From NCBI GenBank assembly GCA_963971305.1, contig OZ020303.1, positions 30,864,106-30,928,105 on the forward strand: 64,000 nucleotides of DNA. The letters run 5' to 3'. Under the pieces are notes generated by a model. It saw only the letters and a program-made list of their open reading frames with translations, did no database searches and was not told where the DNA came from. Positions within the stretch are counted from its first letter, which is position 1; every line of letters starts with the position of its first letter. Below are positions 979 through 44,700 of this stretch, one piece after another. Position numbers and translations under genes: made by a program. Origin of the DNA: Arcuatula senhousia (Eukaryota; Mollusca; Bivalvia; Mytilida; Mytilidae).

Positions 979-3900
979 CTAAAAAGAGAATTAAAAATAT
1001 AAGGGTTGTTGATATAAGGTACTTATGCACAACATACGAAAGTAAACTCCTGTCTCTAAAATGAGTAAGTACCCTTAGCAGGATTAGGGCTATTCCATAA
1101 ATAAATGGATGGGGGGATTGAAAGGCACTTTATATCGTTTTAGATGGGTTGTGTGTTAATTATATTCATTTACGGAATAGCCCTTACACATACTGTCTTA
1201 TAAATTTTCTGAACATTAACATGCTAAAAGTAAAAAGCTACCAATTATTTCAAACATATAACTTGACAGGCCCTATTTATGTCCTTGATTGTAAATGTTT
1301 CAATTGAGTAAGTAACCGTCAGGCAACATTTGATAGTATTAATTAGATTTCTTTGCCAGATTTATATGCATTTTTTTTATTACCCACTTCTTGTAAACTT
1401 CTATAACACAAGTGTAGGTTTGTCAACATTTAGCAGTCTTATAAACTTGCAGTAAAGTTCAAGCTTTGCTCCTGGTTGAAGGTATCCCGTTACTTTAGAA
1501 TGAAAAACAGCAATACTGGTGCTGTTCCTTTTTCTTTGTTTGTTTTTGTCTCATGGATATTTACTCCATATCCCTTTCTTTTTAATTTTTAAATAACATG
1601 AGATTTATCTACTGACAGATAATACCTATGGTTGTGACTTACTTTCAATAACTCTAGCACATATCTCAGCTCCTATCCCACACTGTGGCCATCCACCCTC
1701 AACTGTCACTAGATGATTAGTTTTCATCACAGATTTAACAATAGCCTCTTCATCTAATGGTCTAATAGATCTCAAATTTACAACCTGTTATACAATACAG
1801 TATATTGATAAAACACAATACAATGTAATGACTGTCACAGTTTTTGTTTTATATTTAAATTATTGATAGAAATAGGTTTCTTGTTAACCTACAAATATGC
1901 AAATTTCTTGCAAATCTGTTTTAACAACTTTAACAAGGACATGTCTGAATGTTACAAACAAAGGGGATAAAAGATACAATACCATGTAATTGTTTGGGTA
2001 TCCAGTCAAACAAAGTGGCAGAGAACAGAAAATGATTATATTTGTAAATGGTTTTCTCGATTTAACCCTTGAATCTATTATAACACGTAAAGTTGCAAAT
2101 TTCATTATTGAAAACAAATTCAAAGACAGATACGAAAATCAATTTCTCTAATTTTTTTCTGATTTTAATATCAAACTCTTGTATAGTTGTGGAGAATTAT
2201 TTCTCTCCTCTAGAAAAATTTTCTTCCGAGCGTAATTACACATGCAATTGATGATCAACCTCTTGCAAGATTTTACTTGTAGATATGAAAGAAAACCTTC
2301 TACAACTAAATTCACAATGATTTTGGAATTTCTAACAATTCAGGGAAATAAATTTGATAATTTATTTTTATTTTGCTTTGAGAGCCTCACCATTTATTTC
2401 CCTTGGTGTTCAAAATTCCATAATCAACTTGATCACCTTGTAGAAGCTACATTTCGTACTTTACTAATAAAGTCACTTCATACCTCACATTCTACACCCT
2501 GCCCTGCTAATTCTTTTGCTGCCTCTAAGCAGAGACCAACAGATCTACTGTGTGACACTAAGGTTATGTGATTGCCTAAAATCATACATAAAAATAGAGT
2601 TATATCATGTAATACTCAGTGTATGTTTACAATGCTAAACACTGCATTTTGGCAGAAACTCTCAGTTTTCAGCTGAGTTATCTTGCACTAAACAATATTA
2701 TGTTCACTGAATAAAATGAAATCTGCATACAGTATAACTGGCAATTTTTGCAGATAGGAATAAAAGTTTTGTCATTTCATTTTTGCTGATTTTAATTTTT
2801 GTGGTTTTACATCTTTATTTAGGGATCAGAATACTATATAACTTTATGGGATTTTAAATTTCGTGATTGAGTGTTTTGTTTGTGTATTTTTGTTAAAAGG
2901 GATTAAATTTTTAAGACAACCTTTAATACCCCGAAATTTGTTGACAAAGAAAAATAGAAGAGAACCTCAGATTCCAAGGAAGTAGGCCAGTGACAGACAT
3001 GCTGATGCTGTATACCAAATATCAAGGGGATATGATAAGCAGTTGCTGAGAAAACTGTTATGAACATTTTTTCCCTGCCTACCTGACATTCATCATTATC
3101 ACCCAGACTTTAAATCCGTCCCAAAAAGTACCCATATTTTTTTTACAGTGCTTCTAAATGTTTTTTTTTTTTAGCCAGCCTTCAGGCTGCATGTACTTTA
3201 CCTTCTCTTTCTATCTTTGCCTTTCCTAATGGTATAACAAAACCTTCTGACATTGCTTCATCTGACATCTCAAAAGGTACTCCATACATAATCTCATTTT
3301 CTAAACACACAACTGAAAAGAAGATTCTGAACATCAGTAAAGCTATATGGTTCTTATTCTAAGATAGAAATGATATTGCTTAGAATTATACTTTTAAACT
3401 GTACGAAAGCTAGATAAAAAAAAACTCCCTTCATGAACAAAATTTACTATAGCAGTCAAACTTTTTTCTAGAGTTTGTTTTGAACTTTGAAATGCCAATA
3501 AGATGTTAAGCTCAAATTAAAATTGACTATACATGTAAGCAAAACCAGAAAAAAACAAGTAATAAGTGTAACAGTGAAACTGTTACTAAGTCTCCCAAAC
3601 GAAGTTTCCCAATTGACTCCCATGTAATAATCTCAGACTCCCCTATGGTTACAAATGCTTTCTCTTAAAATAAGTAGTAATAAAATATATGGTTATAGGT
3701 TGGGGATCTCAATGGCTTTCAAGATATTAAGGATTTTGTAATTTGAGGGGGTGGGGCATGACCCACCTGGTACCCCTCTATGGCAACAAATAACTTGTCT
3801 TATCATAAGAAGAAATAATATATATGGTTATAGGGTGGGGATCTCAATGATTCTCAAGATATTAAGGATTTTGTAATTTGAGGGGGTGGGGCATGACCCA

Positions 3901-41700: not shown

Positions 41701-44700
41701 CATTTAAGCAAGCAACAGCTAATCTCTATCTGCAACAGTTTTCATTCTGTAGGCCAAAAACATGAAAAAATGCTATTTTTCACCTTTAAGGGGCCGTAAC
41801 CCCTATAAGGGGTCATCTGACAACTTTGACCCAATGGAGACTATCGTAGAGCTTTTGATGCTGAATCAGTAGCGTGGCCTCAGATTTCCTCTATCTCTTA
41901 TACTTTTTGATTTATAAGCCAAAAACAGTAGTCTGACCCCCCTAGTCTATTTTTAGTAACGGCGGCCATGTTTTTTAACGGATTAAAAATCAAAACACAA
42001 GTTTGGTGCAGGACACCCTAAGGATCATTCATACCAAGTTTCATTAAATTCTGTTTAGTAGTTTCAGAGGAGAAGATTTTTGAAAAATTGTTAACAGACG
42101 ACGACGACGACAGACGACGACGACGACAGACGACGACGACGGACGCCAAGTGATGGTAATAGCTCACATGGACCTTCGGTCCAGGTGAGCTAATAAGAAA
42201 CGCAACAAAAACAATAAGTCTCCAAACTTCGTTTGGGAGACTTAAATATATAAGTGACGTCCATGATTGATTGTCAGGACTAAAAGTTAGCACAAGCAAA
42301 GAAGAAACTTTTTGCCCCTTGCAAAACTTTTTAAAATTTCTATTACTGCAAATGTCATATTAGTAGGCCTTATGGTTCATTACAGATTTTTTAAAATGTT
42401 ATTTGGCCCTGTAAACGCAGTGTTCTCCCCAGAAATTTTGGATAGCATCACATTTTGCGTAAACAAGATTCAGCTAAAGGAAAACGAATCGCGTCAATCA
42501 ACATCTGGGTCATGTTTTATTCAAAGTTTAATCTTAAATGTATCAACCCCCCTTTTAATATAAAACATGATTCAGAAATACTTTTTAAAATGATATAGGA
42601 GGGGGAGTTGTATGCATGACTGGAAAATAACAGCCAAGACATTGTAAAATATGACTATGTTTAATTCTTTTTGCTGGGAAAGATAATTAGTCTAGTTATT
42701 AAAGAATCATGTTGTATGTGAATGATGTCTGATGACTCACAACCCTTAATTGAAATGGGAGAGAAAGGGACAGAAAGTTACCTGAAATAGTAATAATAAA
42801 AACTTATAATTGATATCATGAATATAGTTCATTCTTATCTGCTTTGAATAAATAACTTTGCTGACATCATATGTATCATATAAAAATATATGGTACATGT
42901 AATTTGTAAATAATAGCCACTGCCTTTAAGTTATCTCCCTTTTGCCCAAAAGTTGTCTTTCTTTGTTTATGAAACTGCCAAAATCAAATGTGTGAAATCA
43001 ATGTTTTGGACTATATAATCGTAAATAATGATGTTTAAGGATTCAAATATTCATTCTTTAAGGTAAAAAATCATTTTTTTTATCTTGATCAGTCTTTTTG
43101 TTTGTGGTTTTCATTTCTTTTTCAAGTAAGTTCAAAAACCCACGTGTATCAGACACATGGCTTGTGTTTGTTTTTATTTTGGTCAATTCTGATTGGTTGT
43201 CCAACCAAAATAAAACACTCGGCTGCAGGTGTCTACTGTCGGCAAATCACCTGTAATCAAGTCTAGATAGGTGAAAATCGATATCTTTCAATCAATTGAC
43301 AACAGACCAATCATTTATTTGATAATTGGCTTGGGGTTGTTAAGGTGTCAATTACCCAATGGTCCTGAATGGCTTCAATGTGAAAATTTTAAGCAATTTT
43401 ATAGCGTCTCGGTACAGACCGATAGCATCTCGGTAAAATCTGATAGCGTCTCGGTCCCGAGATGCTATAAGGGCCTGGGGAGAACACTGAAACGACATGT
43501 AAACTTAAGTTTTACAATCATTGATTGAAGAAAGCCTTGCAGGTTAACATAACAAGCCTTAGAACCTGTCATCTTATACCTGGATTGGGGTCTCTGATTG
43601 CTGATTTCAGTAAACCTTTGGCATCTTCTGATGAGTATGGGGATACAACCTTCAGACCTGGACAATGACTGTACCATGCAGCAAAACACTGTGAATGCTG
43701 GGCTGCTACGCCGGCTGCTGCTCCATTGGGACCTCGAAAAACTATTGGCACAGGCACCTGTGGAGATAAAATCTTTTTATAATATGTTGACTGGACATTA
43801 AGCTTAAACAACTTTACACTAATACCGTACTGCACTTTAAGAAACAATTTTTTTAACATTGCAGTCGCAGATTTATACTTTAGATAAAAAGTATATCAGT
43901 CAAAAATGGCTGGATTTCCTAACAGGAAGTAGGTGATTAATAGTTGCCGAGAAGACCGTAACAAATTTTGTTCTCTGTCCATCAATTGCTTGACATTCAC
44001 CATTTTTAAGTGATTTTTTTTTTTACTTAATAAAACCCAGCAAAAGCATGTTTACATTCATGACAATTAGGTCATTATGTTTAAAAAAAATAATAAAACC
44101 ATTCCATAAATTTAATTTCATTCAATTGATGCATACAAAAAATAATGAATTTCCTTAAGTCATCAGAGACATTTCTTATACATGTATAATATACAAAAGT
44201 GTTGCCATTTTAACATTATTCTGACCTACCTCACCTGCAGACATGTAAAATGTTTTGGCTGCTGAGTTGATAACCTGAAATGATGAGAATTCTTATCTGT
44301 TAAAATAACATTGACTTAGTGTCATACAAAATTCAAATCTATATAAATATGCTAAGGATGCATTTTTTACTTTAAAAAAAGGGTCTGTCATATTTATTCT
44401 ATGGATATTTTCTTCATATTATAGAATTTTTAACAACCATTGAAGTTTTGGTCCAAAGGAATGGAAGAACTTTTTCATATGTGCTTAAAAATAACAGGAA
44501 GTAGGTGATTAATAGTTGCAGAGAAGACCGTAACAAAGGTTTTTCATAATCAGAACTATGGAGCAAAAGAATGGGAGAACTATTTAAAAAACAAAATGCA
44601 AAGAATTTTCCCAGTTATCTAACTACCTGATCTATGGCTTGCATGGAGAAATTGAAAGTCATGAATTCACATATTGGACGTAGCCCTGCCTGCAAAGAAA

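Follow-up and report, generated by a model that had tools for sequence, protein, structure and literature searches.

A stack of 43 nested HINE-like elements in a PDHB intron of Arcuatula senhousia, and its likely growth by one-way insertion into a carried (AAT)n microsatellite

How does a single intron come to hold dozens of short elements that lie inside one another in the order of matched brackets? The question is raised by a window of 64,000 nucleotides (the whole stretch of DNA analysed here) from the mytilid bivalve Arcuatula senhousia (GCA_963971305.1, contig OZ020303.1, positions 30,864,106 to 30,928,105), in which an intron of the gene PDHB (pyruvate dehydrogenase E1 beta) carries a long block of repeated "heads" and hairpin "tails". 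A first-pass annotation had described this block as a bracket grammar, in which a tail closes the most recent open head of the same family. The description is confirmed: the block consists of 43 paired elements nested by family without crossing, to a depth of 11, where shuffled tail labels reach 28 pairs at most. Very likely, it is a stack of HINE-like elements that has grown by repeated one-way insertion at T^T within the (AAT)n of a host element, through a predicted Helentron-type enzyme.

By hand count, the block has 44 heads and 45 tails at window positions 3555-42244. In pooled profile scans of the whole 64-kb window, full-length heads and tails are all on the plus strand and are confined to 3555-42245; the F heads, the H tails, and the J tail were missed or only partially hit by these scans and were added by eye. 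Nine families are found in the stack. Heads and tails number 9 and 9 in A, 14 and 14 in B, 4 and 4 in C, 8 and 8 in D, 2 and 4 in E, 2 and 2 in F, 1 and 1 in G, 3 and 2 in H, and 1 and 1 in J, which, after an exchange of family letters, equal the per-family counts given by the first-pass annotation. Two of the E tails (28998 and 29868) are parts of tandem copies without a head end, and the H head at 35990 is the sole head without a matching tail.

The tail at 35256 is a hybrid with a C-like stem and a D-like loop. When it is typed as C, the largest non-crossing same-family matching includes 43 of 43 tails (the two duplicate E tails being dropped); when it is typed as D, the matching falls to 42. 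Tails are typed here by their subterminal repeat, and this is also done for 35256 because its host body is C-like and the same hybrid module is found in a second stack of the genome, where one element combines a 35256-like hybrid 5' module and a C-type repeat with a body that is D-like. Automatic typing by the subterminal repeat, with profiles built from the window's own tokens and tokens under 30 bits dropped, also gives C for 35256 and, with 45 heads and 45 tails, finds 43 pairs. The extra head in this parse belongs to a J element outside the stack.

Shuffled orders do not approach these 43 pairs. In 2000 trials each, shuffling the tail labels gives a mean of 20.8 pairs and a maximum of 28, shuffling whole tokens a mean of 20.9 and a maximum of 27, and shifting tails among near neighbours only a mean of 27.2 and a maximum of 33. 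If heads and tails are paired by a stack that is blind to family, with the duplicate E tails and H 35990 dropped, 43 of 43 pairs are of the same family, compared with a mean of 8.6 and a highest value of 20 in 20,000 shuffles. With H 35990 retained, same-family pairs become 39 of 43.

If the order is a record of insertions, excising the inner elements must give back normal outer elements, and normal lengths are indeed regained. The 14 B copies, whose ends originally lie between 0.5 and about 10 kb apart, come to 512-532 bp after the inner elements are cut out. The eight D copies come to 559-570 bp, and the nine A copies, which have a variable number of 126-bp tandem repeats, to 996-1438 bp. 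Unnested C lengths (546-1598 bp) and those of E, F, and H are more variable, partly because unmatched or foreign elements are still inside.

The anatomy of the elements was measured on the minus strand in one example of each of the nine families, with no shuffle control. All nine examples start with T and have a 5' subterminal repeat of 8-16 bp located 0-2 nt from the 5' end, with its inverted partner on the 3' side, 26-37 nt from the 3' end. An inverted copy behind the 5' repeat, which makes the "tail" hairpin, is found in 9 of 9 (arms 7-15 bp), and so is a palindrome, which lies 5-12 nt before the 3' end and is weakest in A (6 bp with one mismatch). A microsatellite exists behind the 5' module: it is an AAT spacer in most elements, (GAC)n in J, and absent from the E element at 27196. 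The order on the minus strand is thus 5' module, microsatellite (in most families), body, and the 3' subterminal copy with its palindrome (the "head"). Tandem repeats are present in A, E, F, H, and J. Because this plan follows the one described for HINEs, DINE-1 included (in parts of PMC4067079 and PMC7492417), the heads are read as 3' ends and the tails as 5' modules. The first-pass annotation had put the insertion target upstream of a 3' hairpin, which is wrong; in the minus-strand sense the target is just inside the 5' module. The inverted copy behind the 5' repeat has been described for DINE-1 and Cg_HINE and is absent from mite HINEs, according to passages of PMC4067079.

The 5' ends are TAAG, TATG, TATA, or TAGC, some with an additional T, and not the canonical Helitron TC. 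At the 3' end, A, B, D, and H have CTAG, which fits the canonical CTRR; E, G, J, and some C copies have CTTG and one F copy has TTAA, neither of which fits. T is found on both flanks in 42 of 43 window elements, the F element at 18657 being the one that fails; note that the heads at 5320, 11359, and 18657 are placed only roughly. The E element at 27196 runs on into two tandem copies that keep the 5' module and lack the 3' end, and a passage of PMC7492417 describes Helitrons whose inner tandem copies are cut short at the 3' end. The longest listed open reading frame in the stack has 211 amino acids (frame length only). No match is found in Rfam at gathering scores, and exact head and tail patterns have 0 matches in collections of viral and genome contigs, from which the window's own genome was possibly left out. 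To judge from sequence, the elements of the stack are HINEs (non-autonomous Helentrons) in structure.

Whole elements inserted in one orientation always yield balanced brackets, so the grammar needs no special mechanism; it is the site and the orientation that need explaining. As read from the element table, the nested insertions of the window are in the host's spacer, and not in its body, in 42 of 42 cases, although tracts of (AAT)2 or more hold only 366 of the 5642 AA steps (TT on the minus strand) of the elements. The paired elements in one stack all point the same way. A predicted enzyme, acting in trans from an autonomous Helentron, could produce both features if it inserts whole elements, likely between T and T. 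The sense strand of an element would offer (ATT)n, in which T^T steps exist on one strand only; a newcomer would then land in the orientation of its host, adding fresh (ATT)n, and whole insertion in a fixed orientation would make the last element in the first one closed.

Inside (ATT)n the same letters can be read as T...CTAGT between T and T or as TT...CTAG between A and T; a T^T cut is thus indistinguishable there from an A^T cut, and a target duplication likewise. Canonical Helitrons insert between A and T, and so would the proto-Helentron of PMC4067079. The evidence here favours T^T as the cut site, because A^T exists on both strands and T^T on one, a single orientation is seen, and the founder, the outermost element, has T on both flanks. 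The founder sits in T-rich intron sequence rather than in (AAT)n, with no target duplication by eye. The first-pass annotation's claim that every element had entered (AAT)n beside a hairpin, in one orientation, is supported for the nested elements of the window, for held-out loci, and for genome-wide counts (see below), but not for the founder.

The site data are compatible with two readings of the enzyme's choice: it may prefer (ATT)n itself, or it may be held there by the neighbouring 5' module. In the latter case the enzyme recognizes the resident element, whose 5' module is bound by the transposase, and (AAT)n is merely the nearest T-rich stretch. Guests do adjoin the 5' module, and some are located exactly at the module edge with no AAT between. 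However, no resident element has left a token next to the founder, and we consider this variant unlikely, although of the alternatives it is the one that deserves most weight.

Does one-way insertion into (AAT)n explain other loci as well? Genome data come from one assembly of 1.036 Gb. Loci were picked by (AAT)7, which lists 15 places (two neighbours merged), and nine of these were examined, so that the nested share among them is not a genome average. C1:4180563-4223919 (43 kb) is a second stack. Its 44 heads and 47 tails, parsed from plus-strand tokens only between 4180500 and 4224500 and excluding an adjoining satellite, make 41 same-family pairs to a depth of 11; shuffles have a mean of 24.0 and a highest value of 30 (2000 trials). 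The stack parse that the first-pass annotation had proposed for other loci beats shuffled order at this one. B copies of the second stack are 510-545 bp in 11 of 12 cases, and four B copies from small loci are 518-533 bp. Complete parses are obtained for four of the eight smaller loci (5/5, 4/4, 3/3, and 2/2 pairs). The observed value is reached in 69, 154, 674, and 2000 of 2000 shuffles, respectively, and these loci are individually unconvincing because they are too short. Of the other four small loci, one gives 1 of 2 pairs, another has J elements side by side, a third has a weak E head together with an E tail, and the last is empty. Across the five held-out loci measured for insertion sites, an AAT motif is found within 9 bp of 50 of 50 nested insertions, and T is on both sides of 53 of 55 elements.

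Interrupted and intact spacers were also counted genome-wide with exact patterns, which for family A begin in the last bases of the body. Exact flanks are needed and heads beginning with AACAAG are missed, and the repeat counts are lower bounds. For family A, 1180 spacers hold a head, while the intact ones are 300 with up to 30 bases between the markers and 262 longer ones that run into their own 5' module; the pattern for the longer ones, with its gap of 31-61, possibly extends to a second tail and so overcounts intact copies. About two thirds of the counted A copies (1180 of 1742) therefore host another element at the spacer site. For family B, 874 spacers hold a head against 567 intact ones, the intact count covering spacers with up to 30 bases between the markers; if longer intact spacers are all that is missed, 874 of 1441 is an upper estimate for B copies with this flank. 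Controls with reversed patterns give no match. The 100 interrupted A places listed first are all on one contig and form 30 clusters. Neighbours within a cluster (less than 20 kb apart) share the strand in 70 of 70 cases and adjacent clusters agree in 17 of 29, indicating that A insertions in one cluster share their direction and that clusters point either way. More tentatively, and with slightly less than even confidence, we suggest that the internal (ATT)n is the working target and that the population transposes mainly into itself in one direction, over half of the counted A and B copies being hosts. If this pad is kept by selection, it would be a self-confining strategy that spares genes.

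A candidate for the autonomous partner can be sought by its domains. Of 345 candidates for a Helitron-like N domain in the genome, 150 were scored, and the listed rows are above the curated cut-off. An uninterrupted frame of 2241 amino acids on contig 4 encodes OTU, Rep, PIF1 helicase, and a C-terminal endonuclease, the Helentron set. By eye, the 5' end of this Helentron (C4:66786501-66798500) possibly has its own GTCT-type microsatellite, unlike the families of the window. On contigs 1-4, eight of 28 N-domain places are within 15 kb of a listed A junction, two of the eight being neighbours of each other; random placement gives a mean of 0.29 and a highest value of 4 (2000 trials, with the lengths of contigs 2 and 3 assumed). 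Two N-domain places beyond the listed A range were left out of this test. All eight A-near places have the HINE orientation, and the guest beside another N-domain place is an ordinary A head.

Several observations weigh against growth by insertion into the spacer. The second stack leaves 3 heads and 6 tails unmatched, its unnested lengths include longer outliers in each of D, A, B, C, and F (D up to 2124, A 4326, and B 1605 bp), and more than 110 bp separate the end of the host tail from 6 of its 40 insertion points. Only one match is made among the 2 pairs at C1:2842001. In the window, an element in the body of an H element (described below) seems by eye to be outside an AAT spacer. The 2241-amino-acid Helentron has no family-end match above 12.9 bits within 12 kb, where one (ATT)3 is found, and no autonomous element with the ends of the window families is among the Helentron places examined. 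Nor do hosts look older than guests: by divergence from the family majority, 16 pairs have the expected order and 15 the opposite, and by private changes the ratio is 15:16, so hosts and guests are not separated. This age test is uninformative because the copies probably differed already at the source and the families are small. Depth is weakly rank-correlated with private changes (rho -0.38, p 0.026 uncorrected) and with divergence (rho -0.27, p 0.11), and neither value is relied upon.

Could the same order arise without end-to-end insertion? One way is that circular copies recombine with a resident element through (AAT)n homology. Helitron circles are reported in a passage of PMC5148889, and both partners mostly have (AAT)n. 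A circle that recombines in this manner, however, would leave the order head of resident, tail of guest, head of guest, tail of resident, whereas a head and a tail that directly follows it always belong to one family, both in the window (19 of 19 cases) and in the second stack (16 of 16). The founder is outside (AAT)n, and J carries (GAC)n. Circular recombination is rejected on the element order and is very improbable.

No more credible is the separate multiplication of heads and tails by local tandem duplication (slippage or unequal crossing over). Tails within a run are indeed nearly identical and follow one another at about 50-90 bp, and local duplication accounts for the two extra E tails and probably for two extra F tails in the second stack. 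Independent duplication predicts neither the agreement of per-family counts (except in E and H), nor the nesting of nine families, nor the uniform unnested lengths of B and D, and is rejected on order, counts, and lengths.

LINEs (long interspersed elements) that target TAA repeats exist, for example the Dong-like retrotransposons. That the stack is made of such retrotransposons or of SINEs (short interspersed elements) is nevertheless extremely doubtful, as its elements have matched subterminal inverted repeats at both ends and a palindrome, and their tandem copies keep the 5' module and lose the 3' end, as do rolling-circle elements in a passage of PMC7492417. An assembly artefact can be dismissed almost entirely: short near-identical repeats are hard to assemble and 100 N exist in the satellite at the second locus, but the divergence between most bodies is several percent (only 0.6-2% in some B pairs), the unnested lengths of B and D are uniform, and the same grammar is found at other loci.

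How far is such stacking known from other genomes? A variant of known Helitron self-insertion is found here, and its new part is the deep one-way stacking on a carried target. Deep one-way stacks on a carried microsatellite were not found in the open literature searched (titles, abstract openings, and some passages). A Helitron-like superfamily of Lepidoptera reportedly disrupts (GAAA)n microsatellites, to go by the title of a 2010 work by Coates; so far as the title allows a comparison, microsatellite disruption is common to it and the window elements. The MuTAnT elements (PMC4486113) are said to be Mutator-like elements in TA microsatellites, and as microsatellite-targeting DNA transposons they are like the window elements but belong to a different superfamily.

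Closer relatives are the HINE and DINE-1 elements. As far as passages of PMC4067079 describe them, they share with the window elements the 5' and 3' subterminal inverted repeats, the inverted 5' copy, the microsatellite, central tandem repeats, the 3' palindrome, and a T-rich target. The microsatellite there is part of the structure, whereas in the window stack it is also the landing site of guests, leading to deep one-way stacks. Cg_HINE of the Pacific oyster (parts of PMC7492417 and PMC8268682) is alike in its bivalve host, module order, T-rich target, and satellite-like central repeats. The oyster microsatellites are mostly of four bases, and the word "nested" is absent from the main texts of the two papers. 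In Fusarium and maize (passages of PMC5148889 and PMC3288121), Helitrons are found within Helitrons, and some elements have multiple ends on the 5' or 3' side, as family E does here, but these passages tell of few nestings and of no fixed carried target. The statement of the first-pass annotation that it knew of no published description of self-nesting thus has to be narrowed: self-insertion and nesting are in print in these two sources, and what was not found is the deep stack on a carried target.

Insertions can be ranked in time from the order of nesting, with no need for a molecular clock, and stacks could thus give an ordered transposition history for many families in one genome. Stacks also make the target choice of Helentrons testable, and biochemistry on target choice is asked for in a passage of PMC4067079. 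An element that carries its own target would steer new copies into old ones, away from genes. Annotation pipelines would likely split such blocks into tandem repeats and fragments, missing whole elements.

The PDHB intron that encloses the whole stack extends over 3313..43579 on the minus strand (40,267 bp, GT...AG), and the stack occupies 38.7 of its 40.3 kb (96%). The exons join in frame across GT...AG to give a protein piece that matches mitochondrial PDHB chains of solved structure. Among the best 120 of 8000 matches listed, the highest named proteins are from Mytilus: M. edulis has 88% identity, and two isoforms under "Mytilus califo..." have 76% and 86%.

The elements of the stack, with depth and boundaries from the stack parse, are as follows; all are given in the sense of the element, the minus strand. 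The founder belongs to family E (3555..42244; own length 1378 bp, with 135-bp tandem repeats), and the remaining paired elements are all inside its AAT spacer. At depth 2 are a B element (4863..13476), a C element (13489..40033), and the J element (40040..42192), whose internal microsatellite is (GAC)n and not (AAT)n and which is itself in the founder's AAT spacer. The B element encloses another B at depth 3 (5320..13403, 3' end partly deleted). Within this are, at depth 4, the A elements 5773..8388 and 8398..13343. The former holds an uninterrupted A at depth 5 (7098..8325) and the latter an A at depth 5 (9579..13289), followed inward by a C at depth 6 (10874..13232) and, at depth 7, by an uninterrupted F (11359..12166, head boundary approximate) and an uninterrupted H (12182..13173).

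In the C element of depth 2, three elements are found at depth 3. A D (14262..15962) holds two D copies of depth 4 (14769..15337 and 15341..15907), and a B (15963..18150) holds an A (16412..17519) and a D (17529..18096), both of depth 4. The third, a D (18154..39977), contains at depth 4 an F (18657..35400, head boundary approximate) and a C (35404..39919). In this C are an unpaired piece of family H (35990..36927), which has the body and 3' end but no matching 5' module, a G of depth 5 (36928..37462), and an H of depth 5 (37469..39851), which by eye has another element in its body. In the F are two elements of depth 5. One is a D (19547..23739) with A copies at depth 6 (20050..23675), depth 7 (20968..23597), and depth 8 (22148..23522, uninterrupted). 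The other is a C (23740..35325), whose 5' module is the hybrid C/D token at 35256.

The deepest nesting is found in this last C. At depth 6 it has an uninterrupted B (24203..24729), an uninterrupted D (24736..25305), and a B (25306..35248) that encloses a B of depth 7 (25768..35194), which in turn holds two B copies of depth 8 (26218..29984 and 30000..35134). In the first of these are, at depth 9, an uninterrupted B (26671..27189) and an E with both ends present and no AAT spacer of its own by eye (27196..28177), next to which are two tandem copies (867 and 870 bp; 28178..29917) with the family E 5' module and without a 3' end. In the second is a B of depth 9 (30452..35074). It contains at depth 10 a B (30904..32866) with an A of depth 11 (31369..32806), a D (32873..33431), and a B (33435..35011) with two B copies of depth 11 (33888..34404 and 34426..34957).

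Some further features of the elements were noted by eye. Inside the body of the H element of depth 5, at about 37620-38980, is a further element with a GAC-type microsatellite and subterminal repeats, whose ends are a head ...GATACGACCGC and a tail hairpin ...GCGGTCGTAT. Many bodies across several families have a common motif, GGCGGCCATTTTGAAAATGGC, and in many a GGACAAGTTCA-like stretch stands directly before the AAT spacer.

The satellite next to the second stack (C1:4140001-4180563) has 45 E 5' modules, mostly 889 bp apart. Its left end is beyond the range covered, 100 N are within the array, and the 43 units measured have a mean identity of 99.6%. It is built from an E copy without the 3' end. 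Two such units exist at 28178-29917 of the window, and the one compared is 98.6% identical to the array. In the second stack itself, C1:4206398-4206653 has four F 5' modules 69 bp apart and two F 3' ends; either a local duplication or one element with several 5' ends probably accounts for this.

Outside the stack, a lone HINE-like element is seen by eye on the same strand at 48137-48925, with 168-bp tandem repeats in 3.8 copies. From 50639 to about 52000, a J head (44 bits) is followed by tandem repeats of 154-167 bp and an ACGG microsatellite; this is another HINE-like element outside the stack.

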